A program made the position numbers and the translations under genes. Shown here piece by piece: positions 29,424 to 48,080 of a stretch of DNA of 59,513 bases. The notes below the pieces were generated by a model. The model was given only the letters and a program-made list of their open reading frames with translations. It made no database searches and was not told the DNA's origin. The stretch lies in contig JAFRZM010000005.1 of NCBI GenBank assembly GCA_017442585.1, positions 1 to 59,513 on the forward strand, in the 5' to 3' direction. The DNA is from Lachnospiraceae bacterium (GTDB lineage: Bacteria > Bacillota > Clostridia > Lachnospirales > Lachnospiraceae). How positions within the stretch are numbered: position 1 is the stretch's first letter; each line of letters opens with the position of its first letter.

Positions 29424-29762
29424 GGGCTAGTACCGGTTTCGACGGGGATCATGCAGCTTAAGAAGCGAGTCGTATGGTAATGCGTTAAATGGCCAAATTA
29501 AAATTAAACGCTGAAGATAATTTAGCATACGCTGCCTAGTTTGCAGCAGTCGGATTCAGTGCACTCACACATTGGAATCACGGCTTCAACTATGTGAGAA
29601 ACGACTTTATCAAAGCTTTGAGATAATGGGCGTATTATGAAGCTACTGAAAGTATAAGGATGTCATTTTCCGTGTGCCGGAGGGAATGTAAAATAAATGA
29701 CTACACTCGTAGAAGGGAAGGGAATTGGTTTTCGGACACGGGTTCAACTCCCGTCTAGTCCA
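29424..29762 (+). ncRNA. ssrA: Transfer-messenger RNA (tmRNA)
   Basis: The 5' end GGGCTAG with the conserved 'ACCGGTTTCGACGGGG' block pairs with CTAGTCC at 29755-29761, forming the tRNA-like acceptor stem; the T-arm 'GGTTCAACTCCCG' lies just before. CCA is not encoded. The tag frame starts at 29493 with GCC and reads AKLKLNAEDNLAYAA before TAG at 29538-29540 (15 residues). tmRNA rescues ribosomes on broken messages and adds the tag for proteolysis. Length, position after smpB and both end motifs make this call firm. Confidence 0.96.
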
Positions 29763-29822
29763 CTTAACGAATCATAGACTGCCCCTTGTCCAAAGGAGTC
29801 TGTGTTGGAATAAAAGATATAC

Positions 29823-36467: not shown

Positions 36468-38357
36468 TTGAGTAAGGAAAACGAAGATTACTTGGACAAA
36501 TTACTTAATTCCGTACAAGAAGTACCACAGAATCCTGCCAGGCAGGTTAAGAAGAATAATGTAAACAATAAAAGACCAATGTCTTCTGCAGATAGAAAAG
36601 CCGATAGTTTTTTGGCTGATTTTGAGAAAGAGCTTATGGAGTCGGACGATGACGATTTCTTAAGCGATTTCGAGATGGATCTTGAGGAAGATCCGCTTGG
36701 CGACGCGGATTTTGGTGAGGAGCTTTTTAATGATGAAGCGGGCCTTGACAAAATGATGGAAAATGCCGCAAATGATGACGAAATGATAGACGGTGTATTT
36801 GACGGAGTAGGTGCGGAAAATAATTCCGCTCCGGAAGAACCGGTGAATGTAGAGACACCTGCAGAAGATTCGGGTGATGCTGCAGAAACCGAAGATGACT
36901 TTATGTCAGGCCTTTCAGCTATAATGGGACAGGAAGATAGTAACGAGAATGCTACAGTGGAAGATGCACCTTCAAATGATTTGCCATTGGAAGATTTCAC
37001 TGCAGAACCTATTTCAAGTGATGAATCAAATTCCGAAGAAAGTGCTGAAGAATCCGGAGATATCGGAATTCCGGATCTTAGCCCTGATACATTAAAGGAT
37101 ATGATGTCTGATATGGCAGAACAAAGTGACGGTAGCGAAGCCGGAAGCTTAGATATGGGGATGGATTTTGGAGATCTTGGCTTCGGGGATGCTGCTGAAG
37201 GCGGAGAGGGTAGCGCACCTGTCGGTGATGATGCATCTGCCGATGATATTATATCAATGCTTAATGACCTCGGAGATGGAGACGAAGATCTTAAGGATAT
37301 AGGAAGTATGCTTAGTGCCGATGAGAACGGAGAGTCAATCGGTATTACTGAGACTGAAGTAGCCGGAGATCTTGCGGGACTTGGATTTGATCTTGATGTT
37401 GCGGCCGATATAAGTTCGGACGATCCGGAACTTGCAATGATAAAAGAACAGCCGTCATCATCGGGAAGTGACGATGGAGAAGGCACAAAGAAGAAAGGCT
37501 TTTTGGCAAAGCTTAAGGATTTGTTCTTTGGTTCCGACGAGGACGAGGATGCACCACAGGTTATTGCAAACGCGAAGCAGCAAAGTACTTCGGATCTTGC
37601 AAGTGAACTTGCTGATGAAGATGCCGATATTTTAAGAGCATTGGAAGGCGGCGGTGATGAAAGCGGTGAAGAGACACCGGCTGAACCTGTACTTTCCGAA
37701 AAAGAACAAAAGGCTAAAGAAAAAGCAGAGAAGAAGGCTGCAAAGAAGAAGGAAAAAGAAGAAAAGAAAAAGGCAAAGGCTGCGGCAAAAGCTGCAAAGC
37801 CGAAAAAAGAAAAGAAGCCTAAAGCCCCGAAGGTTAAGACGAAACCTCTTCCTAAGGGACCTGTATTTGTAATACTTCTTCTTGCAGGATCGATACTTGG
37901 AATAACGCTTTTCTTATCAAATACCGTTAATAACAGAATGGCGATGAGTAAGGCAGAAAATTATTTTACCAAGGGCGAATATGTAAACGCGTATAATGTT
38001 CTTAATCCGTTGAAGCTTAAGGATAAAGATGATAAGATATTCTTAAAGAAAGTATCAATGCTCGCTTCAATGGAAGAGTTTTACAGAGCGTACGCTACAC
38101 TTTCAACATCCGGAAGACAGGAACTTGCGTTGGATGCGTTGGTACGAATGATAGGTCATTATGATATAATGATCAATGATGCTGGTGAACTTGGAATATC
38201 GGCAGAGCTTACTGTCTATGAGAACAATGCGGAGAAGCTGTTAAATGAGGTTTATAATGTGTCATTTGAAGATGCATTAAAACTTTATGATATGCGTGAC
38301 CGGCAGGAGTATTCGATAGAACTTGTAAAGGTTTTAAGAAGAGCCGGCATACAATGA
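36468..38357 (+). CDS. Very acidic single-pass membrane protein with K-rich juxtamembrane stretch
   Basis: This 629-residue protein has no family I recognise. Residues 1-370 are dominated by Asp, Glu, Ser and Gly with short repeats such as 'DFGDLGFGD' and 'DDFLSDFEMDLEEDPLG'. Residues about 405-462 are Lys/Ala/Glu-rich. A single membrane segment at 464-487 follows ('FVILLLAGSILGITLFL'), and the last 140 residues look like two or three helical TPR-like pairs ('AENYFTKGEYVNAYNVLNPL'). By the positive-inside rule the acidic half is cytoplasmic and the TPR-like part outside. The start is TTG at 36468, 7 bases after AGGGAGG. It lies between cheV and a FliD-like gene. Confidence 0.8.
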   Translation: MSKENEDYLDKLLNSVQEVPQNPARQVKKNNVNNKRPMSSADRKADSFLADFEKELMESDDDDFLSDFEMDLEEDPLGDADFGEELFNDEAGLDKMMENAANDDEMIDGVFDGVGAENNSAPEEPVNVETPAEDSGDAAETEDDFMSGLSAIMGQEDSNENATVEDAPSNDLPLEDFTAEPISSDESNSEESAEESGDIGIPDLSPDTLKDMMSDMAEQSDGSEAGSLDMGMDFGDLGFGDAAEGGEGSAPVGDDASADDIISMLNDLGDGDEDLKDIGSMLSADENGESIGITETEVAGDLAGLGFDLDVAADISSDDPELAMIKEQPSSSGSDDGEGTKKKGFLAKLKDLFFGSDEDEDAPQVIANAKQQSTSDLASELADEDADILRALEGGGDESGEETPAEPVLSEKEQKAKEKAEKKAAKKKEKEEKKKAKAAAKAAKPKKEKKPKAPKVKTKPLPKGPVFVILLLAGSILGITLFLSNTVNNRMAMSKAENYFTKGEYVNAYNVLNPLKLKDKDDKIFLKKVSMLASMEEFYRAYATLSTSGRQELALDALVRMIGHYDIMINDAGELGISAELTVYENNAEKLLNEVYNVSFEDALKLYDMRDRQEYSIELVKVLRRAGIQ

Positions 38358-38395
38358 TACATAGTAGTTTTTTTATTTAAAAAGGAGTGATTTAT

Positions 38396-39121
38396 ATGAC
38401 AGGGATGTACGGATTACAGAATAGTTCCATAAGTTCATTGTTTTCCGGGTTCAATGGAGTGAACACGACAAGTACAAGCTCAAGTATACTTGCAGATTAT
38501 GCATCACTTAGGAATGGTTCTTATAAGAGACTTGCTAAGAATTACTATCGCGACCAGAATAATTCCGACAGGAAACTTAGGCTTAAGACTACTAAAGAAG
38601 ACACAAAGAAGTTAAACGAACTTAGATCAAATTCAAAAGACCTCTTTGAGGCTTCGACAAAGCTTATGTCGACTAATTTTGAACCAAAGACCGATAAGGA
38701 AAAAGAGGCTGCATTCGATAATATTAAAGCGTTCGTTGATAGCTATAACGATACTGTAAAAGATACAAAAGATGCAACAAATACTTCGATACTTACGGCA
38801 GCTTCATCAATGGTTAAGTCCACGCAGGCAAATAAGGGACTTTTGGGACAGCTCGGAATCAAAGTCAATGCGGATAATACACTAAAACTTGATGAGAGTT
38901 TTTACAAGGATGAAGACGGTAAGATGAAGGATGTAAATTACAATCCTGCAAAGGCTCTGTTTAAAGGAATGGGTTCGTATGCCCAGAACGTAAGCAGTAA
39001 ATCGTCTTATATGTCGACATCTGCGACAAATGCAGCATCAAAGGCAACGACTTATACAAGTGTCGGAAATTATAACAAGTACGGAAGAGATTATTCTTCG
39101 CTATTTGATAACATGGTTTAA
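38396..39121 (+). CDS. FliD-C-terminus-like protein lacking the D0 region
   Basis: This 241-residue Ser/Asn/Lys-rich protein has no signal peptide. Its middle and end resemble the C-terminal part of flagellar cap protein FliD: 'AASSMVKSTQANKGLLGQLGI', 'DNTLKLDESFYKDEDG' and 'ALFKGMGSYAQNVSSKSSYM'. The N-terminus ('SISSLFSGFNGVN') does not match the FliD D0 helix. I chose ATG at 38396, 8 bases after AAAGGAG. Full FliD proteins are typically at least twice as long, so this is either a reduced cap or a separate surface or export-dependent family. It is cotranscribed with its flanks (gaps about 30-40 bases). Confidence 0.7.
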   Translation: MTGMYGLQNSSISSLFSGFNGVNTTSTSSSILADYASLRNGSYKRLAKNYYRDQNNSDRKLRLKTTKEDTKKLNELRSNSKDLFEASTKLMSTNFEPKTDKEKEAAFDNIKAFVDSYNDTVKDTKDATNTSILTAASSMVKSTQANKGLLGQLGIKVNADNTLKLDESFYKDEDGKMKDVNYNPAKALFKGMGSYAQNVSSKSSYMSTSATNAASKATTYTSVGNYNKYGRDYSSLFDNMV

Positions 39122-39151
39122 TAACATACTTTAACTTGAAGGGATAGAATA

Positions 39152-39673
39152 ATGTCACTGTTTGGCAAATTGGTAGATGGTCTGTTTCAGGCGCGCTTTG
39201 TCGAAGACAGAGAGCGTGACTATGAAAAAGAACGGGAAAAGATCCGGCAAAAGATTAAGAAGACCATAAAAGAAACTGAAGACAAAGGGGAATTAGATAG
39301 CTTCATGGCAGAGATGAATGAGAAGATAGACGGACTTAAGACATCTATCGAGGAGACAATTAAAGAAAACAGTGATATAAAGGCGGAAAGAATAAGCGTA
39401 AAGATCGATGAAGAAGTTGCGGCTTTAAAGACAGAACTTAAGGATGGATTCAATAGGATAGAAGATAAGATTCATTCCGAGAATGTTAAGTCATACCGTA
39501 ATATTCAGGCATTGGTTGATGAGATGGACAAGAAGATTGCAAAGGAAGATGACCTATTCTGGAGACTTCGTTCTATCAAAAGATCGATAAGCGTTCTTGT
39601 ATGGCTGTCACTTGGAATCTTTATAACGGTTATTCTTTACATATTATACTCTCTTGGAGTATTCTCCTTTTAG
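39152..39673 (+). CDS. Tail-anchored coiled-coil protein
   Basis: The 173-residue product has an almost continuous E/K heptad-type helix (residues about 18-135; for example 'EKEREKIRQKIKKTIKETE' and 'RISVKIDEEVAALKTELK') and one C-terminal membrane segment (about 148-168). It would be a cytoplasmic rod anchored at the membrane. I recognise no family. It follows the FliD-like gene by 30 bases and ends at a terminator. Coiled coils hold partners, but none can be named. Confidence 0.7.
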   Translation: MSLFGKLVDGLFQARFVEDRERDYEKEREKIRQKIKKTIKETEDKGELDSFMAEMNEKIDGLKTSIEETIKENSDIKAERISVKIDEEVAALKTELKDGFNRIEDKIHSENVKSYRNIQALVDEMDKKIAKEDDLFWRLRSIKRSISVLVWLSLGIFITVILYILYSLGVFSF

Positions 39674-40354: not shown

Positions 40355-40383
40355 TTGCTTAATATTAAGATACGTGTTATGAT
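40355..40383 (+). promoter_or_regulatory. Promoter of the flagellin-like operon
   Basis: TTGCTT (40355-40360) and TATGAT (40378-40383) are 17 bases apart. It is of vegetative type; no CCGATAA flagellar -10 is present here. Confidence 0.5.
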
Positions 40384-40400
40384 TTTCCAAAGTGGAAAAT
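40382..40400 (+). promoter_or_regulatory. Perfect palindrome at the start site of the flagellin-like operon
   Basis: ATTTTCCA-AAG-TGGAAAAT: 8-base arms, 3-base centre. It begins inside the -10 and covers the expected start site, the classic position for a repressor operator. In RNA it would form a 5' terminal hairpin that could stabilise the message. Confidence 0.6.
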
Positions 40401-40431
40401 TTGTGTTATTGCTATAGAAGGAGGTATCCTT

Positions 40432-41193
40432 ATGAGTGGTATTATTAAAATAAGCGATTCTCTGAACAATTCCTATCAAAAATTAAGCTCCGGTAAGAGG
40501 ATCAATAAGGCGGCAGATGATGCTGCAGGTTTACAGATTGCTGAAAAGACAAAGAGCAGTATAAACGGTTATGATGTCGGTGCAAATAACATGAAAACCG
40601 GCAATAATCTTATTAATACTGCAGATTCGGCACTTGATTCAATGACCGGAAGTCTGCAAAGACTTCGCGAATTGGCTGTAGCGGCACAGAATACCGCAAT
40701 TTACGGTGATGACGATATCAAAGCCATGCAGGATGAAGCAACACAGCTTTTGCAGGGAATGGATGGAGTCGTTGATACTGCGACGTTTAACGGTAAGAGA
40801 TTACTTGATGACAATGAACTTAACATTCAGTCTTCGGGTAATGACTCGATGAAATTAAACACTTATAATTCATCGGTCGATTCGCTGGGTTTATCAGGAC
40901 TTAATATCGCTTCAAATGATGCATTACAGAAAATCGATAATGCGATAAATTCGATAAGCGATAACAGAAGTGCTTTGGGTGCAAAATCTAATGCATTGAC
41001 TTATGCCACAGATTATAACCGTGGTGCATCGCAGTATTTAAATGAAGCCAACAGTCGTATCGAAGACCTCGATTATGCTAAAGAAATAAGCGAGAAGAAA
41101 AAGTCGGAAGCATTAAATGAATACTCAAATCTGATGCAGAAGAAGCAGTTGGAGCAACAGGAAAATAGTACAAAGAGATTACTCGGATTATAG
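40432..41193 (+). CDS. Atypical flagellin
   Basis: This 253-residue protein has the flagellin D1 cores: N-terminal 'YQKLSSGKRINKAADDAAGLQIAEK', 'GNNLINTADSALDSM' and 'LQRLRELAVAAQN', and C-terminal 'SRIEDLDYAKEI'. The variable middle is minimal. The ends differ from normal flagellin: the N-terminus lacks about a dozen residues of the 'MxINxNxxAxN' helix, and the C-terminal helix, usually hydrophobic and ending LLQ/LLR, is K/E/Q-rich ('KKQLEQQENSTKRLLGL'). These D0 helices build the filament core, so normal polymerisation is doubtful. GAAGGAGG precedes ATG. It heads a five-gene run. Confidence 0.85.
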   Translation: MSGIIKISDSLNNSYQKLSSGKRINKAADDAAGLQIAEKTKSSINGYDVGANNMKTGNNLINTADSALDSMTGSLQRLRELAVAAQNTAIYGDDDIKAMQDEATQLLQGMDGVVDTATFNGKRLLDDNELNIQSSGNDSMKLNTYNSSVDSLGLSGLNIASNDALQKIDNAINSISDNRSALGAKSNALTYATDYNRGASQYLNEANSRIEDLDYAKEISEKKKSEALNEYSNLMQKKQLEQQENSTKRLLGL

Positions 41194-41195
41194 TT

Positions 41196-42260
41196 ATGGG
41201 CGTACATGAGACGTTATGGGGAAACGGGTTTGACCTTAAGCCGGTTTCCCTTTTCACTTTGAAAGAAAAGAATATCGAAGCCGATATATCAAATATGGGC
41301 GGACTTATAAAGTCGTTAAGGGTTAAGGGACGTGACGGCTCATTTTTTGATGTAATACTTGGATTTGACGATGCGGAAGGATATAAGAACAATAAATCCT
41401 GCATAGGAGCTATAGTAGGACGAAATTGTAATCGTATCGCTGAAGGAAAGTTTTTCTTGAATAACAGGGAATATTGCCTTGTACAAAATGACGGTACCAA
41501 TAATCTTCATACCGGTCCGGGCGGTACTCATTATAAGACATTTGATGTTGACAGAGATAAGTCGACAGAGACGGTTTTAAAAATGCATGTTATCGACAAG
41601 GAAGAAGAGATGTCTTTTCCGGGAAATGTCGATCTTGATTATACATATACTCTTGGTGAGAATACTTTATTATTCGAAGCAAATGCAGTGCCTGATAAGG
41701 ATACGGTAATCAATATTACATCGCATCTTTATTTCAATCTCTCCGGGCAGGAAACCTTAAATCTAAACTGGCAAAGCATACGCTTTAATTCGGAGCTTTA
41801 TAACGAGCTAGGCAAACATATGATACCGACAGGTAAGTGTTGCCATGTGTACGGAACATGTTTTGATTTCACCAATCCGAAGCCTATATTAAAGGATATC
41901 TTTTCTGATGATATCCAGATGGAAAAGGCCAACGGATACGATCATAATTTCATTATAAAAAGAACGGAAGATGCAAGACGTGATGATGTGTATCTTTGCG
42001 CAGTGGCACATTCCGATATGTCGGGTATTACGATGAAGGTCTATGCGAATACTCCGGGATTCCAGTATTATACCGGCAATTTCTTAAACGAGCCTAATGG
42101 AAAAGGCGGTGTGGACTACGTTAAGAGGAGTGGATTTTGTATTGAACCGCAGTTTGTACCAAACGCGATCAATATGGATTCAGATATAATAGCAAAACCG
42201 ATTGTAAGATCCGGTGAGCATTATAATTTAAAGATTCTGTATGAATTTACTTTTGAATGA
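41196..42260 (+). CDS. galM: Aldose 1-epimerase (galactose mutarotase family)
   Basis: The 354-residue enzyme interconverts alpha and beta anomers of aldoses. Expected motifs are 'MGGLIKSL', 'IGAIVGRNCNRIAEGKF', 'NNLHTGPGG' (His), 'NITSHLYFNLSG' (catalytic His) and 'FCIEPQFVPNAIN' (catalytic Glu). Its start lies 2 bases after the flagellin-like stop with almost no ribosome site, suggesting translational coupling. No other sugar gene is adjacent, which is odd for galM and may imply a role for a surface sugar, though that is speculative. Confidence 0.88.
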   Translation: MGVHETLWGNGFDLKPVSLFTLKEKNIEADISNMGGLIKSLRVKGRDGSFFDVILGFDDAEGYKNNKSCIGAIVGRNCNRIAEGKFFLNNREYCLVQNDGTNNLHTGPGGTHYKTFDVDRDKSTETVLKMHVIDKEEEMSFPGNVDLDYTYTLGENTLLFEANAVPDKDTVINITSHLYFNLSGQETLNLNWQSIRFNSELYNELGKHMIPTGKCCHVYGTCFDFTNPKPILKDIFSDDIQMEKANGYDHNFIIKRTEDARRDDVYLCAVAHSDMSGITMKVYANTPGFQYYTGNFLNEPNGKGGVDYVKRSGFCIEPQFVPNAINMDSDIIAKPIVRSGEHYNLKILYEFTFE

Positions 42261-42274
42261 TTAAGGAGGGTGTT

Positions 42275-42997
42275 ATGGCAGAAGCACAGACAATGGAGGA
42301 CTTAAAAGAAGAACTCGAAGAATCATTAAAGAAGGGTCCAATGGACGCTAATTATGAGGAATTAAAGGAAGCAATGAATAAGGGGGAAATATTCAGCGTT
42401 AAAATCCTTTCACAGGTAAAGGGTGGAGTTACGACTGAAGTTAACGGATTGCGCGCTTTTATTCCTGCATCACAGTTATCAGCAGATTATATCGAGGACA
42501 TTGCTCCTTTTGTAAATAAAACTGTTGAAGCTTGTCTCGTTACGGTAGATCCGGCGAAGAACAGCGTTATAATGTCAGTTAAGGAAGTAGAAGTTAAGAA
42601 GAAGAATAAGGCACGCGAGGAAAAAATGGCTTCAATCAAGGTCGGTGAAGACTATATGGGTAAAGTTGAATCCATTAAAGACTACGGTGCATTTATAGAC
42701 TTGGGTGACGGAGTTAAGGGATTACTTCACATTTCAAGAATCTGCAACAAGAGAATCAAGACTCCTGCAGAGGTTATAAAGGAAGGCGAAGAAATAAAGG
42801 TACGCGTCGTAGAGATTAAAGACGGTAAGGTTTCATTAAGCACAAAGGTATTTGATGAAACACCTGTTGAAAGAAGAGCACCTAGAAAAGAAAGAACAGA
42901 AAATGAAGAGGATGAAGCACAGCATATCGAGCATACCGAAGGTGATATTGCGACCTCATTATCAGGACTTTTAAGCGGTATTAAGCTTGACAATTAA
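42275..42997 (+). CDS. Protein with two S1 RNA-binding domains
   Basis: The 240-residue protein carries one divergent S1 unit (about 35-110, 'GEIFSVKILSQVKGGVTTEV', 'RAFIPASQLS') and one canonical S1 unit (about 125-195, 'GKVESIKDYGAFIDLGDGVKG', 'LLHISRI'). An acidic tail follows. It resembles the shorter S1-domain proteins of clostridia (RpsA-like or YabR-like), which bind mRNA or ribosomes. ATG at 42275 is 5 bases after AAGGAGGG; an in-frame ATG at 42257 overlapping the galM stop has no site of its own. Confidence 0.85.
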   Translation: MAEAQTMEDLKEELEESLKKGPMDANYEELKEAMNKGEIFSVKILSQVKGGVTTEVNGLRAFIPASQLSADYIEDIAPFVNKTVEACLVTVDPAKNSVIMSVKEVEVKKKNKAREEKMASIKVGEDYMGKVESIKDYGAFIDLGDGVKGLLHISRICNKRIKTPAEVIKEGEEIKVRVVEIKDGKVSLSTKVFDETPVERRAPRKERTENEEDEAQHIEHTEGDIATSLSGLLSGIKLDN

Positions 42998-43036
42998 TTG
43001 AGAATCATTTTTGCATGAGGCAGTGGGAGATTATCT

Positions 43037-44494
43037 ATGAGATATATACCAATAGAAGGCGTTAAGCCCGGAATGGTACTCGGATATGAGATTTTTGATG
43101 ATTCCGGACATGTACTTATTCCAAAGGGAGTAATGCTTACAGAACAATATTTGGATCGTCTTAAGAGCCTACATTTTGACGGTATATATGTAAACGATTT
43201 TATAACGAATGATATCGTTGTGGAACCGCTTATTTCCCCTGCGCTCCGTGCGGAATGCATGATTTATGTAAGTACGGGCGATGTTGATGGCTGTAAAGAA
43301 GCAGCTTCAAGTATCGTTGAGGAAATACTGGCAAAAGATGTTATTTCCTTTGACCTCATGGATCTTAGAACTTTTGATAATTATACATATGCTCATTCAG
43401 TAAATGTTGCCGTTTTGGCATGTGTTGTCGGTATAGGTATGAACTTCTCTGAAGAAGAACTGAAAGACCTTGTTATTGCGGGACTTTTGCATGATATAGG
43501 CAAGCTTCAGATTCCGCAGGAGATAATGAATAAGCCGACGAGACTTACAAGGGAAGAGTATGAGGTAATTAAAACCCATCCTATGCTTTCCTATAGAGTT
43601 ATAGCGCCGCGTATTGATATTTCATCAGAGGTTAAAACCGCTGTGCTTTCACATCATGAAAATGAGGACGGTACAGGTTATCCAAACGGCACAGAAGGTA
43701 ACAGCCATAATATCTTTACTAAGATATTACATGTTGTCGATAATTATGATGCGCTTGTTTCTAAGCGCCCTTATAAGGAACCGTATTATCCGTTTGATGC
43801 GGCAGAATATCTTATGGGTGGATGCGGATTTTTATTCGATCAGAAGGTTGTGGAAACATTCTTACATTATGTACCTTTCTATGCAAAGGGAACTCAGGTG
43901 GAGCTTTCTGACGGCAGAGTCGGAATTATAGCAGATAATACCGGTGATCATAATTTAAGACCGGTTGTCAAACTTTTAAACGGTACAATGGTCGATTTGT
44001 ATGAAGCTCAGAATATGAACCTTACAATAGGCATTGCAAAGGATGAAAGAGAAGCAAGAATGCTTCGTTCCGAGCAGGAACGTGATAAGATGTTAGGCCG
44101 TCCGGAATCACGTTATGTTAAGAAACCGCGCGTCATGGTTGTAGATGATATGATAACGAATCTTCAGGCTATAAGAACTATCTTAGAAGATGAGTGTGAG
44201 ATAACGCTTCTTAAAGGCGGTCAACAGGCTATAAGATATATAAAGAGTCTGGAAGGTGACTATCCGGATCTTATACTTATGGATATCAATATGCCTGAAA
44301 TTAATGGTATAGATGCTGCAGAACGTATTATGAAGATTACACGTTCGGAGATACCGATAGCATTTGTATCGTCGGTATGCGACAGAGAAACGGTTTTAAA
44401 ATGCAAGACACTTGATACGGCAGGGTTTATTGCAAGACCGTATAAGCCGGGCTATGTTCGCTCGGAAGTTAAGAGAATTCTATCAGGAAGGTAG
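43037..44494 (+). CDS. HD-GYP c-di-GMP phosphodiesterase with C-terminal receiver
   Basis: This 485-residue protein begins with an 'IPIEGVKPGMVLGYEIFDDSG' type cap, followed by an HD-GYP domain: H152-D153 in 'LLHDIGKLQIP', H206 in 'SHHENEDGTGYP', 'IFTKILHVVDNYDALVSKRPY'. A linker leads to a receiver domain (about 365-485) with phospho-Asp416 in 'LILMDINMPEING'. All metal ligands of active HD-GYP enzymes appear present, so it should hydrolyse c-di-GMP under control of phosphorylation. The kinase gene begins 8 bases downstream and is the obvious donor. Confidence 0.92.
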   Translation: MRYIPIEGVKPGMVLGYEIFDDSGHVLIPKGVMLTEQYLDRLKSLHFDGIYVNDFITNDIVVEPLISPALRAECMIYVSTGDVDGCKEAASSIVEEILAKDVISFDLMDLRTFDNYTYAHSVNVAVLACVVGIGMNFSEEELKDLVIAGLLHDIGKLQIPQEIMNKPTRLTREEYEVIKTHPMLSYRVIAPRIDISSEVKTAVLSHHENEDGTGYPNGTEGNSHNIFTKILHVVDNYDALVSKRPYKEPYYPFDAAEYLMGGCGFLFDQKVVETFLHYVPFYAKGTQVELSDGRVGIIADNTGDHNLRPVVKLLNGTMVDLYEAQNMNLTIGIAKDEREARMLRSEQERDKMLGRPESRYVKKPRVMVVDDMITNLQAIRTILEDECEITLLKGGQQAIRYIKSLEGDYPDLILMDINMPEINGIDAAERIMKITRSEIPIAFVSSVCDRETVLKCKTLDTAGFIARPYKPGYVRSEVKRILSGR

Positions 44495-44501
44495 ATAATA
44501 T

Positions 44502-47174
44502 ATGGAATTATGGGCAGGAATAGCAGGACTTGCTTTTGCTATAGCAGTAGTTGAATACTGGGTTGTAAAAGGAGTTAATAACAGGGAACACAGACTTTTA
44601 CCTGCAGTTATTGCATGTGTCGTATTATATTTTATAACAAGAGTTGCAATACACATGAAACCTGAGATGGGCGAGACATTGCGCCTTTTTGAGGACCTTG
44701 TGACATTGCAACTTATTTTCGTTATGATCCCGTATATATGGGATTTCTTTAAGATTAACTTAAAACTTATTCCAAGACTCATATTGTTTTTGTTTTTAAT
44801 AGGAGTGGATGTATATATCCTTACCGCGGAGTGGAGCGGAATTAGTTATCGCTACGTCTATATCGCATATTGCATGGTCGGATTTGTGATAATGTTTACG
44901 CTTTGGCTAAATGTAGGATTGAGTCGCAAACTTACGGAGGAGTGGAAGTTTTATCATAGGTATTTCGGTGTTGCGATACTTGTGCCTGCAGCCGGTATAG
45001 TTACAAGGGTTTTGTGGAATGAAATGGGCTCAAAGATTCTTTCCGCATGCTTTATATTTGACCTTGTAATGGTACTTATTGCAATCTATAACGATTATCT
45101 TATAGATGAAGAAAAAATTGTTTATTATAACGTATTTGAAGCATCAGACCTTGCAATGCTCGTGCTTGATACGGATTATAACTTTGTAAAGGCCAATAAC
45201 AAGGCTAAAGCGCTTTTCCCTGATTATATAAAGGGGTTGGAAGAAAACCCTTTGGGTGATCCATTCCTCGCACAGGTACGAACATATATCGGCGCAGAAT
45301 CGTTAATGGAGCCGTTTGATGTTGAAGGAAGGTATTATGAAATAAAAGTCACTCCGGTTTTACTTAAAGGAGAACCAAGAGGATTTATTGCGACGTTTGT
45401 TGATATTACAAATGTTGCCAGAAAAGCGGATGAGTTTTTAAACGAAAAGTATCAGGCGGAAGAACAGGTACTAAAAAAGAGCAAGTTCCTTGCAAGAATG
45501 AGCCATAATCTCAGAAGTCCGCTTCATACGATAATCGGTTTATCGGATATACTTCTTACCAAAAAAGGTATTTCGAGAACAAATAAGGATATAATCTTCC
45601 ATTTAAGGACCGCTGGAGATATGCTTTTATCCGAAGTAAATGAGATACTTGATTTCAGTAAGCTCGAGGCCGGAGAGGTTACGCTTACGGAAGATGAATA
45701 TGATATATATAACCTTATAACGGAAGTTGTATATCAGGCACTTGTTAATCTTAAAGACAGACCTGTGAAGGTAAGACTTAATTTCATGTCGGATTTCCCT
45801 GTAGTAGTTTACGGTGACGAGATGAAAGTCAGGGAAATAATGCAAAATCTGGTATCGAATGCAGTTAAGTTTACATATACCGGAACTATAGATATTATGG
45901 TGGATTTTGTATACCTTGATTCGGAAAAGGTAGAAGTAAGTTTTACTGTTAAAGATACCGGTATCGGTATGACTAAGGAGCAACTCGATGTGGCTTTTAA
46001 GGAGTATAATTCCTATGCAGACACTCATGCGGCGGAAGGAACGGGCCTTGGATTAAGCATTGTGGCCTATTATGTAAATATGATGGGTGGCGAAGTTAAG
46101 CTCAACAGTACCGAAAATATAGGAACCACGGTATCTGCGACATTCATACAAAAAGATGCAAATAAGCGCGTAAAGACAGCAGAGGTTTTAGAGGGAAAAG
46201 AGCTTCGCGGAAGGCAGTTTGAATACGAAAGCGAGCAGAAGATAACCACCGTTTATCCTACTGCAAAAGTGCTTGTCGCCGATGACTTTGAAGTAAATGT
46301 TTTGATATTTGAAGAAGCGGCGAGACCGTATAAGTTTAATATAGTTCCGGCTTATGACGGTAAAGAGGCACTCGATAAGGCACTGTCCGAAGAATTTGAT
46401 ATTATAGTTTTGGATCAGATGATGCCTAAGATGACCGGATCTGAAGCGGCACGTGAATTAAAAAAGAAAATGGATGTCCCGATAATTTTAATGAGTGCGG
46501 CTGAAGAACGTGAAACTGCAGATATAGAGTGTTTTGATGCAGTACTTGCAAAGCCTATTAATCCGACTCAGTTTAGGACGACTCTTGAAAAGTTCCTTCC
46601 TGAAGAAAAGAAGGAATTGTTACAGTCCGATATGGTAGAAAACTATAAGGCCTCAATGGGGGATAAGCGACTGAAGATTTTAAGAGCGTTTGTAAACGAG
46701 ACCACTGAGGTGTTAAATGAGCTTCCTAAGCTTCGTGAGACAGATATATATACATTCAGAAGCAAAGTTCACGGAATTAAGGGTACACTCAGGCAGATCG
46801 GAAGAAATGCCGCATCTGATGAGGCGGAAATAATGGAAATGGCTGCAAAGGCTGAGCATTATGATTATATAGAAAGAAAACTTCCTGAGTTCATAGCCTA
46901 TATTAATGAAGAAGTGGATGATATAAGGACGGAGATAGAGCGCGAGGAAGATGATGTAAGAATTACAAAGAGTAAAGTTCCTTCAAAGGAAAAGGAAGGA
47001 TACTTTAACGAGCTTAAAGAAGGCTTCAAGACGTATGATATAACAAGGATTGATAAAGCATTGGATTCTTTAAATAAGATAAAGGTATCGGCAGATGAAG
47101 AAGAAATCTTAAGTAAGGCTATATCATATGCAGATGAGCTTGAGTATGAAAAAGGATATGAGCTTTTTAATTAG
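44502..47174 (+). CDS. 7TM-type hybrid histidine kinase with PAS, receiver and HPt domains
   Basis: This 890-residue kinase has about seven hydrophobic segments in residues 1-205, a PAS domain (about 215-310), a HisKA domain with phospho-His335 in 'MSHNLRSPLH', an ATPase domain ('NLVSNAVKF', 'DTGIGM', 'GTGLGLSI'), a receiver with Asp638 in 'IIVLDQMMPKMTG', and an HPt domain with His757 in 'KVHGIKGTLRQIG'. The built-in relay His-Asp-His can pass phosphate to a separate receiver, most simply the one on the HD-GYP protein encoded just upstream. It would sense a membrane or extracellular cue. Confidence 0.92.
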   Translation: MELWAGIAGLAFAIAVVEYWVVKGVNNREHRLLPAVIACVVLYFITRVAIHMKPEMGETLRLFEDLVTLQLIFVMIPYIWDFFKINLKLIPRLILFLFLIGVDVYILTAEWSGISYRYVYIAYCMVGFVIMFTLWLNVGLSRKLTEEWKFYHRYFGVAILVPAAGIVTRVLWNEMGSKILSACFIFDLVMVLIAIYNDYLIDEEKIVYYNVFEASDLAMLVLDTDYNFVKANNKAKALFPDYIKGLEENPLGDPFLAQVRTYIGAESLMEPFDVEGRYYEIKVTPVLLKGEPRGFIATFVDITNVARKADEFLNEKYQAEEQVLKKSKFLARMSHNLRSPLHTIIGLSDILLTKKGISRTNKDIIFHLRTAGDMLLSEVNEILDFSKLEAGEVTLTEDEYDIYNLITEVVYQALVNLKDRPVKVRLNFMSDFPVVVYGDEMKVREIMQNLVSNAVKFTYTGTIDIMVDFVYLDSEKVEVSFTVKDTGIGMTKEQLDVAFKEYNSYADTHAAEGTGLGLSIVAYYVNMMGGEVKLNSTENIGTTVSATFIQKDANKRVKTAEVLEGKELRGRQFEYESEQKITTVYPTAKVLVADDFEVNVLIFEEAARPYKFNIVPAYDGKEALDKALSEEFDIIVLDQMMPKMTGSEAARELKKKMDVPIILMSAAEERETADIECFDAVLAKPINPTQFRTTLEKFLPEEKKELLQSDMVENYKASMGDKRLKILRAFVNETTEVLNELPKLRETDIYTFRSKVHGIKGTLRQIGRNAASDEAEIMEMAAKAEHYDYIERKLPEFIAYINEEVDDIRTEIEREEDDVRITKSKVPSKEKEGYFNELKEGFKTYDITRIDKALDSLNKIKVSADEEEILSKAISYADELEYEKGYELFN

Positions 47175-47209: not shown

Positions 47210-47235
47210 AAAGCGGCCTGTAAAAGGGCCGCTTT
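47210..47235. terminator. Hairpin terminator between convergent genes
   Basis: AAAGCGGCC (47210-47218) and GGCCGCTTT (47227-47235) form a perfect 9-base stem; the T tract is weak on the plus strand. Confidence 0.65.
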
Positions 47236-47822: not shown

Positions 47823-47968
47823 TTATATCACCTTAAAGTATATAATAATTTTATATGTTGAAAGCGGTATTTTATATCTTTCAAACACGTGGAAATCCAA
47901 CAATTTACAGTATACAACAAGGTGAAAAACGGTGCAAGATTTTGGGCAATTTTTTTATAGATAAATAG

Positions 47969-47998
47969 TTGACGTTATCGGATTAATAATGATATATT
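47969..47998 (+). promoter_or_regulatory. Promoter of the glycine cleavage operon
   Basis: TTGACG (47969-47974) and TATATT (47993-47998), spacer 18. A palindrome AGTCAT-GGATT-ATGACT (48021-48037) follows in the leader and could be an operator. No glycine riboswitch pattern was seen in 47823-48080. Confidence 0.5.
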
Positions 47999-48080
47999 TA
48001 ATTCGTATGTGAATATCAAAAGTCATGGATTATGACTACTGGATAATGACAAGAATTATGTATGAAAAGAGGAAAAATTC

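Follow-up and report, generated by a model that had tools for sequence, protein, structure and literature searches.

Altered flagellins, one of them beside a galM-S1 gene pair in Lachnospiraceae and others across related families, seem to stand outside the usual flagellar control

Our window, the whole stretch of 59,513 nt that was analysed, covers positions 1 to 59,513 of contig JAFRZM010000005.1 from a Lachnospiraceae bacterium (GCA_017442585.1), and holds five consecutive genes that encode an orphan flagellin, a galM-like aldose 1-epimerase, an S1-domain protein, an HD-GYP-type protein and a hybrid histidine kinase (Table 1). ORF calls and Pfam recovered the gene order, the intergenic gaps of 2, 14, 39 and 7 nt and all the domain classes on which a preliminary description of the locus had been built; in the 7TM-HPt architecture given there for the kinase, the HPt assignment rests on an HxxKG motif, and neither the 7TM region nor the HPt domain has a Pfam match. 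For the S1 gene an ATG at 42257 is a possible start too, and the ribosome-binding site favours 42275. The gaps are indeed free of terminators: none of the four holds a terminator-like site, and two weak plus-strand matches lie inside the HD-GYP ORF (total 7, vs. 4.6 with an s.d. of 2.3 in shuffles). The 9-bp hairpin behind the kinase gene is a possible end of the run, and the terminator-like site scan did not flag it. Promoter-like sites in the run occur at the level of shuffled sequence (26 vs. 25.5); three weak plus-strand matches inside galM, at shuffle level too, leave room for an S1 start site within galM.

Table 1. Features of the five-gene run and its borders (window coordinates)
Feature	Position	Strand	Basis
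σA-type promoter TTGCTT-N17-TATGAT of the flagellin-galM unit	40355-40383	+	Sequence; hexamer positions kept in three relatives
Palindrome ATTTTCCA-AAG-TGGAAAAT, 8-3-8	40382-40400	.	Over the predicted start site
Orphan flagellin, 253 aa	40432-41193	+	ORF; Pfam Flagellin_N/C
Aldose 1-epimerase (galM-like)	41196-42260	+	ORF; Pfam Aldose_epim
Protein with two S1 RNA-binding domains	42275-42997	+	ORF; two Pfam S1 matches
HD-GYP-type protein with C-terminal receiver, predicted c-di-GMP phosphodiesterase	43037-44494	+	Pfam HD_5 and Response_reg
Membrane histidine kinase-receiver-HPt hybrid	44502-47174	+	Pfam HisKA-HATPase_c-Response_reg, weak PAS_4
Hairpin, 9 bp	47210-47235	.	Read from sequence; the kinase and MTHFS genes converge here

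Rfam at gathering scores lists no described riboswitch inside the run and places a tmRNA gene at 29424-29765 of the window. No glycine riboswitch reaches the gathering score at 47823-48080; one is present in a related genome (G004, L023:2717-2800), where it separates MTHFS from gcvT. PADLOC gave no match for the four proteins tried, and a part in defence was rejected for both the flagellin and the S1 protein.

The promoter ahead of the flagellin gene, which the preliminary description had joined to a palindrome over the start site, is accompanied by an upstream TGAAAA...TGTGTA block common to all four genomes that share this arrangement, each with a σA-like promoter. The palindrome is present as described, as a single perfect copy in its own assembly, but is within chance: when the 164-nt spacer was shuffled 1000 times, 74 of the shuffled sequences reached an arm of 8 nt, and the element is absent in all three relatives. 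A role as a conserved operator was therefore rejected.

We compared the run among seven genomes of the genus (G000, the window genome, to G006). The order flagellin-galM-S1-HD-GYP is found in four of them (G000, G001, G003 and G004), so that the five-gene order reported before extends to relatives for its first four genes; all five genes stand in order in G000 and G004, the two genomes whose contigs extend far enough; those of G001 and G003 break off within the HD-GYP gene, which in G004 is followed by the kinase gene. The flanks are also syntenic in G004, from orf36468 to DUF4364 on one side and along MTHFS-gcvTHP on the other, and the order kept there is thus a weak sign of selection for the five genes as a unit. 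Three ORFs at 36468-39673 of the window have no Pfam match, and their homologues keep their order in the genus. DUF4364 was rejected as a dedicated partner: 36 of 40 relatives have it, and in those that lack the flagellin it still keeps to the same upstream neighbours. In G002, G005 and G006, MTHFS, galM and S1 follow each other on a single strand, and neither the flagellin nor the HD-GYP gene adjoins them; the orphan flagellin of G005 is located on the galM-S1 contig at a distance of ~23 kb. Given that the galM-S1 pair is common to all seven genomes, the remaining genes appear to have been added around it. The run would then be a mosaic put together at the level of the genus around an old galM-S1 pair, with the orphan flagellin gene added upstream of galM and the HD-GYP/hybrid-kinase pair added downstream of S1.

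The spacing of these genes points to more than one transcription unit. The gap from flagellin to galM is 2 nt in three of the four genomes and 3 nt in the other; the galM-S1 spacer of the three relatives measures 91, 92 and 101 nt, and each of the three spacers contains an extended −10 element, TGnTATAAT, which arises in shuffled spacers at a rate of 0.023-0.029 each. The promoter evidence in these relatives thus suggests two units, flagellin-galM and S1-HD-GYP(-kinase). The gap of 14 nt in the window genome contains no TGnTATAAT, and since no second promoter is visible there, read-through of all five genes is possible. In the outgroups, galM and S1 overlap (G002), overlap or are 3 nt apart depending on the start chosen (G005), or are separated by 50 nt (G006), with no TATAAT. 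The three relatives are 79-93% alike over four proteins, and the window genome is 61-73% alike to them; given this close kinship and the tight galM-S1 spacing in outgroups, the promoter may have been gained in the three relatives or lost in the window genome. A small TCCGA-loop-TCGG stem, common to the three relatives (L021, L022 and L023), lies between the S1 promoter and the ribosome-binding site, and autoregulation by the S1 protein is a possible role for it. The preliminary description had proposed one switch for all five genes, to be refuted, among other results, by separate transcripts with internal promoters; the TGnTATAAT element before S1 in all three relatives with the order comes close to that refuting result, and galM-S1 without flagellin or HD-GYP neighbours in three of the seven genomes also speaks against a single switch.

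The relay residues had been correctly placed: HPt His757 of the kinase and receiver Asp416 of the HD-GYP protein are as described, and HisKA His335 and receiver Asp638 of the kinase complete the chain. The HD-GYP protein retains HD at 152 and GYP at 214, with the motifs LLHDIGK and HHENEDGTGYPNG intact. We infer that the two proteins would form a separate c-di-GMP relay running His335-Asp638-His757-Asp416. Compared with other pairs of HD-GYP response regulators and hybrid kinases, which have the same HD, GYP and receiver Asp and the same kinase His, receiver and HPt, this pair has nothing unusual beyond its neighbouring genes, both activity and phosphotransfer being predicted from residues.

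The most striking part of the locus is the flagellin. It scores 101.3 bits to Flagellin_N and 42.6 bits to Flagellin_C (cut-offs 26.6 and 23) and consists of D0/D1 only, its 253 residues aligning to D0/D1 of B. subtilis Hag; Campylobacter FlaC has a similar size of about 250 aa. The N-terminus is ~12 residues short (residues 12-13 align to Hag 24-25) and the N-terminal D0 helix is incomplete, the core motif lying at residue 26 vs. residue 38 in 16 of 16 ordinary flagellins; its C-terminal helix is charged. Of the 28 orphan proteins measured, 26 have a recognisable core motif, which in 22 lies at residues 21-32; in four close kin (L048, L050-L052) it stands at 41 behind a different sequence, so that their N-termini are not short. 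The last 32 residues contain 5-9 K/R in 27 of the 28 orphan proteins and 1 in the other, vs. 0-3 in all 16 ordinary ones, and in members from other families the C-terminal helix is less charged (K/R 2-5 in several) and some N-termini are longer. L75, R77 and L81, which are D1 residues, and N187 are invariant in two profiles of the lineage, A1 and A3, and L228, Y231 and M235 are kept in at least 90% of A3. The flagellin gene has a dN/dS of 0.06-0.10 in four of six genome pairs of the genus, dS being saturated in the other two, and no stops occur in the listed matches of the family and order searches. The D0/D1 packing as read here is a prediction from these alignments. In genus g171, members L220, L221, L225 and L228 have lost the AADDAAG motif and keep a similar C-terminal helix.

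Profile A1 (16 orthologues) searched in 150 genomes of the family, almost all at least 90% complete, found 14 genomes with matches of at least 271 bits, followed by a step down to 226 bits. Profile A3 (26 sequences) searched in 294 genomes of the order found 44 genomes in eight families above ~238 bits, a count that depends on where the cut was set, as scores continue below it with no clean gap; six of these families (f1, f2, f5, f11, f18 and f22) have rows in the larger of the two trees below, and membership of f16 and f23 rests on profile scores and inspection. FlhA occurs in 79 of the 150 family genomes and 188 of the 294 order genomes, and in every carrier of an orphan flagellin (14/14 and 44/44); the P values for this link take no account of relatedness among the genomes. 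Of 293 genomes drawn from across the class, 7 gave a match at E 1e-68 or better, two of them outside the order, G646 at 291 bits and G444 at 233 bits, the latter below the ~238-bit cut. A quick maximum-likelihood tree separated 26 orphan rows from 48 ordinary flagellins with an SH-aLRT of 99, and a second tree, built on core columns without the altered ends and enlarged by 17 orphan rows (of 26 additional loci, 9 gave no row), separated 43 from 48 with a support of 100. Both trees are unrooted, and the ordinary flagellins, 48 of 109 candidates in the first tree, were picked by a complete N-terminus, so that intermediate forms may be missing. Judged by these sequence comparisons, the orphan flagellins are a lineage apart from the sampled ordinary flagellins.

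The two groups of genes also differ in their predicted promoters. A σ28 pattern lies within 300 nt of 0 of 28 orphan genes (0.31 expected) and 14 of 16 ordinary genes (0.2 expected), and a σA pattern lies within 120 nt of 21 of 28 orphan genes (4.6 expected) and 1 of 16 ordinary genes (1.3 expected). Upstream of 19 further orphan loci there was no σ28 pattern (0/19) and a σA pattern in 13 (3.1 expected); the σA pattern was absent upstream of the other 7 of the 28 and 6 of the 19 genes. At a looser σ28 score of at least 10, one of 29 orphan genes (that of G058) and 15 of 17 ordinary rows, one gene being listed twice, were matched. The 28-gene set comprises the 29 orphan genes minus the borderline G112 (L161), with G048, G093 and G166 outside the scored genes; it counts each of the near-copies L048 and L050-L052, and several loci are close kin, not independent draws. 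The 16 ordinary flagellins compared with it were, as for the trees, selected for a complete N-terminus. The 19 loci are those of 25 that gave a central ORF, and family-like proteins were found in all six of the others. The σ28/σA split predicted from these patterns is strong in this sample, not absolute. Some ordinary Lachnospiraceae flagellins (Roseburia/Eubacterium, clade F) are predicted to be under housekeeping promoters, according to the available part of PMC3720852, and promoter type alone is thus no proof of a role outside the filament.

Our comparisons suggest a protein that has kept its flagellin core and changed its ends. With an N-terminal D0 helix that is truncated or exchanged for another sequence, and with charges on the C-terminal one, these proteins would probably fail to polymerise; and the altered D0 together with confinement to FlhA genomes is best fitted by an exported monomer. 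Transcription of the orphan flagellin would depend on the housekeeping sigma factor; the flagellar export apparatus would recognise the protein, with FliS at its C-terminus, and export it as a monomer, to act outside the filament in the manner of Campylobacter FlaC or the Vibrio FHPs. The altered flagellins thus seem to be outside the usual flagellar control and probably play no part in building the filament. For the whole reading, in which the run is a mosaic on galM-S1, the flagellin a putative σA-made, exported, non-filament protein and the relay a separate device with predicted phosphotransfer, we put the chances at about even. A wider proposal, that an old paralogue lineage left the σ28 regulon, altered its filament ends and kept its D1 surfaces, and may now be a housekeeping-expressed, dedicated non-filament secretion substrate for matrix or host contact that in one genus sits beside an epimerase and a c-di-GMP relay, is tentative, with a sizeable minority share of our confidence.

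The main rival is a cytoplasmic flagellin mimic that would occupy FliS and/or FliW, and so tune flagellin translation or export before the σ28 genes are on. It would account for the housekeeping-type promoters and for the D1 regions kept near those that FliW protects in B. subtilis (PMC6070490, in the part available), and FliW is present in seven of nine orphan carriers among the 40 relatives searched; however, G005 (99% complete) carries an orphan flagellin and other flagellin-type genes and has no FliW match; G001 also lacks a FliW match, but is only 62% complete. FliW of C. jejuni leaves the flagellin-like FlaC unbound (PMC5466977, as far as the accessible text goes). Weakened by G005, the mimic is unlikely in our estimate. 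A minor structural flagellin at the base or tip of the filament would be consistent with the good flagellin domain scores and with FlhA in all carriers, but the altered N-terminal D0, the charged C-terminal helix and the missing σ28 promoter in most scored members make such a role improbable. We regard one co-regulated programme, in which a flagellin-derived protein and c-di-GMP breakdown are switched together, as a similarly poor prospect: the tight spacing, the gaps free of promoters and terminators in the window genome, and the order kept across the four-genome clade argue for it, yet the separate S1 promoter in all three relatives, which also lack the palindrome, and galM-S1 alone in three of seven genomes argue against it. 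Decaying paralogues with no function, as very variable N-termini and scattered locations might suggest, are very improbable in view of the low dN/dS where measurable in the genus, the listed matches free of stops, and the conservation of L228, Y231 and M235.

The preferred reading, that of an exported non-filament flagellin, has precedents. Campylobacter FlaC is a secreted non-filament flagellin that is bound by FliS and not by FliW (PMC5466977, PMC4863622), and in B. subtilis FliS is wrapped around the C-terminal D0, with D1 in contact with FliW (PMC6070490), each as given in the parts of these papers at hand. FlaC and the orphan flagellins both consist of D0/D1 with D2/D3 largely absent, keep the TLR5-type D1 region, do not occur in aflagellate species and have differing neighbourhoods in distant species; unlike FlaC, the majority of orphan proteins are truncated at the N-terminus and end in a charged helix of a different kind, with σA-type promoters ahead of their genes, and their export is predicted. 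The available text of PMC5466977 and PMC4863622 describes no N-terminal cut for FlaC, which counts against the likeness. For the Vibrio FHPs, the available part of PMC6692518 shows excretion via the flagellin channel, interaction with biofilm exopolysaccharide and a contribution to the biofilm; like the orphans, Vibrio FlaE and FlaF are flagellin paralogues, and they were not found in the filament, but flaE and flaF sit in flagellin gene arrays, a setting shared by hardly any of the orphan genes at the loci covered, and an RpoF-type promoter upstream of flaD drives flaE, whereas the orphan genes have σA-type promoters. The Roseburia/Eubacterium flagellins belong to the same superfamily and several have predicted housekeeping promoters; the complete entries in Table 1 of PMC3720852, in the portion available, are at least 270 aa long and start MVVQHN- or MRINYN-like, and none is of the MSxIS type. 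A D1 motif kept with a changed C-terminal D0 recalls the “silent” flagellins of PMC11285207, a lead only, drawn from part of that paper. In the literature covered, which left most subscription papers outside its scope and includes the accessible part of PMC7018530, we found no description of the orphan lineage, which is weak evidence of absence.

We consider this lineage, rather than the five-gene run as a switch, the part worth following; to treat the five-gene “operon” as a c-di-GMP/flagellin switch would first require transcripts. If the reading is true, many motile gut and rumen clostridia would make a flagellin that does not serve swimming and is outside late flagellar control. Such a protein would be a candidate for filament-free secretion by the flagellar route, for a part in building the matrix or for silent binding of TLR5, and catalogues of “flagellins” from gut genomes would combine two different sorts of protein.

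The neighbours of the orphan genes vary widely. At 50 lineage loci outside the four-genome clade, with ~1.5 to 10 kb per side covered for most, we found no galM, S1 or HD-GYP match at E 1e-5, and a partial kinase match near the orphan flagellin at three (L037, L157 and L206). The orphan flagellin of G022 adjoins FlgL/FlgK-type genes, as judged by eye. Neighbours recur only in small groups, the widest of six loci (L048-L052 and L147), where DUF3880/glycosyltransferase genes lie near the flagellin; L049 additionally carries NeuB, GNAT and Polysacc_synt_2 genes. Glycosyltransferase, NeuB-type and Polysacc_synt_2 genes are of the kind that decorate exported flagellin, and it is possible that those of the six-locus group decorate the orphan flagellin as a dedicated glycosylation set. 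The arrangement of orphan flagellin among such genes is seen at L049:5491-14052, L050:8060-9631 and L147:2-1425.
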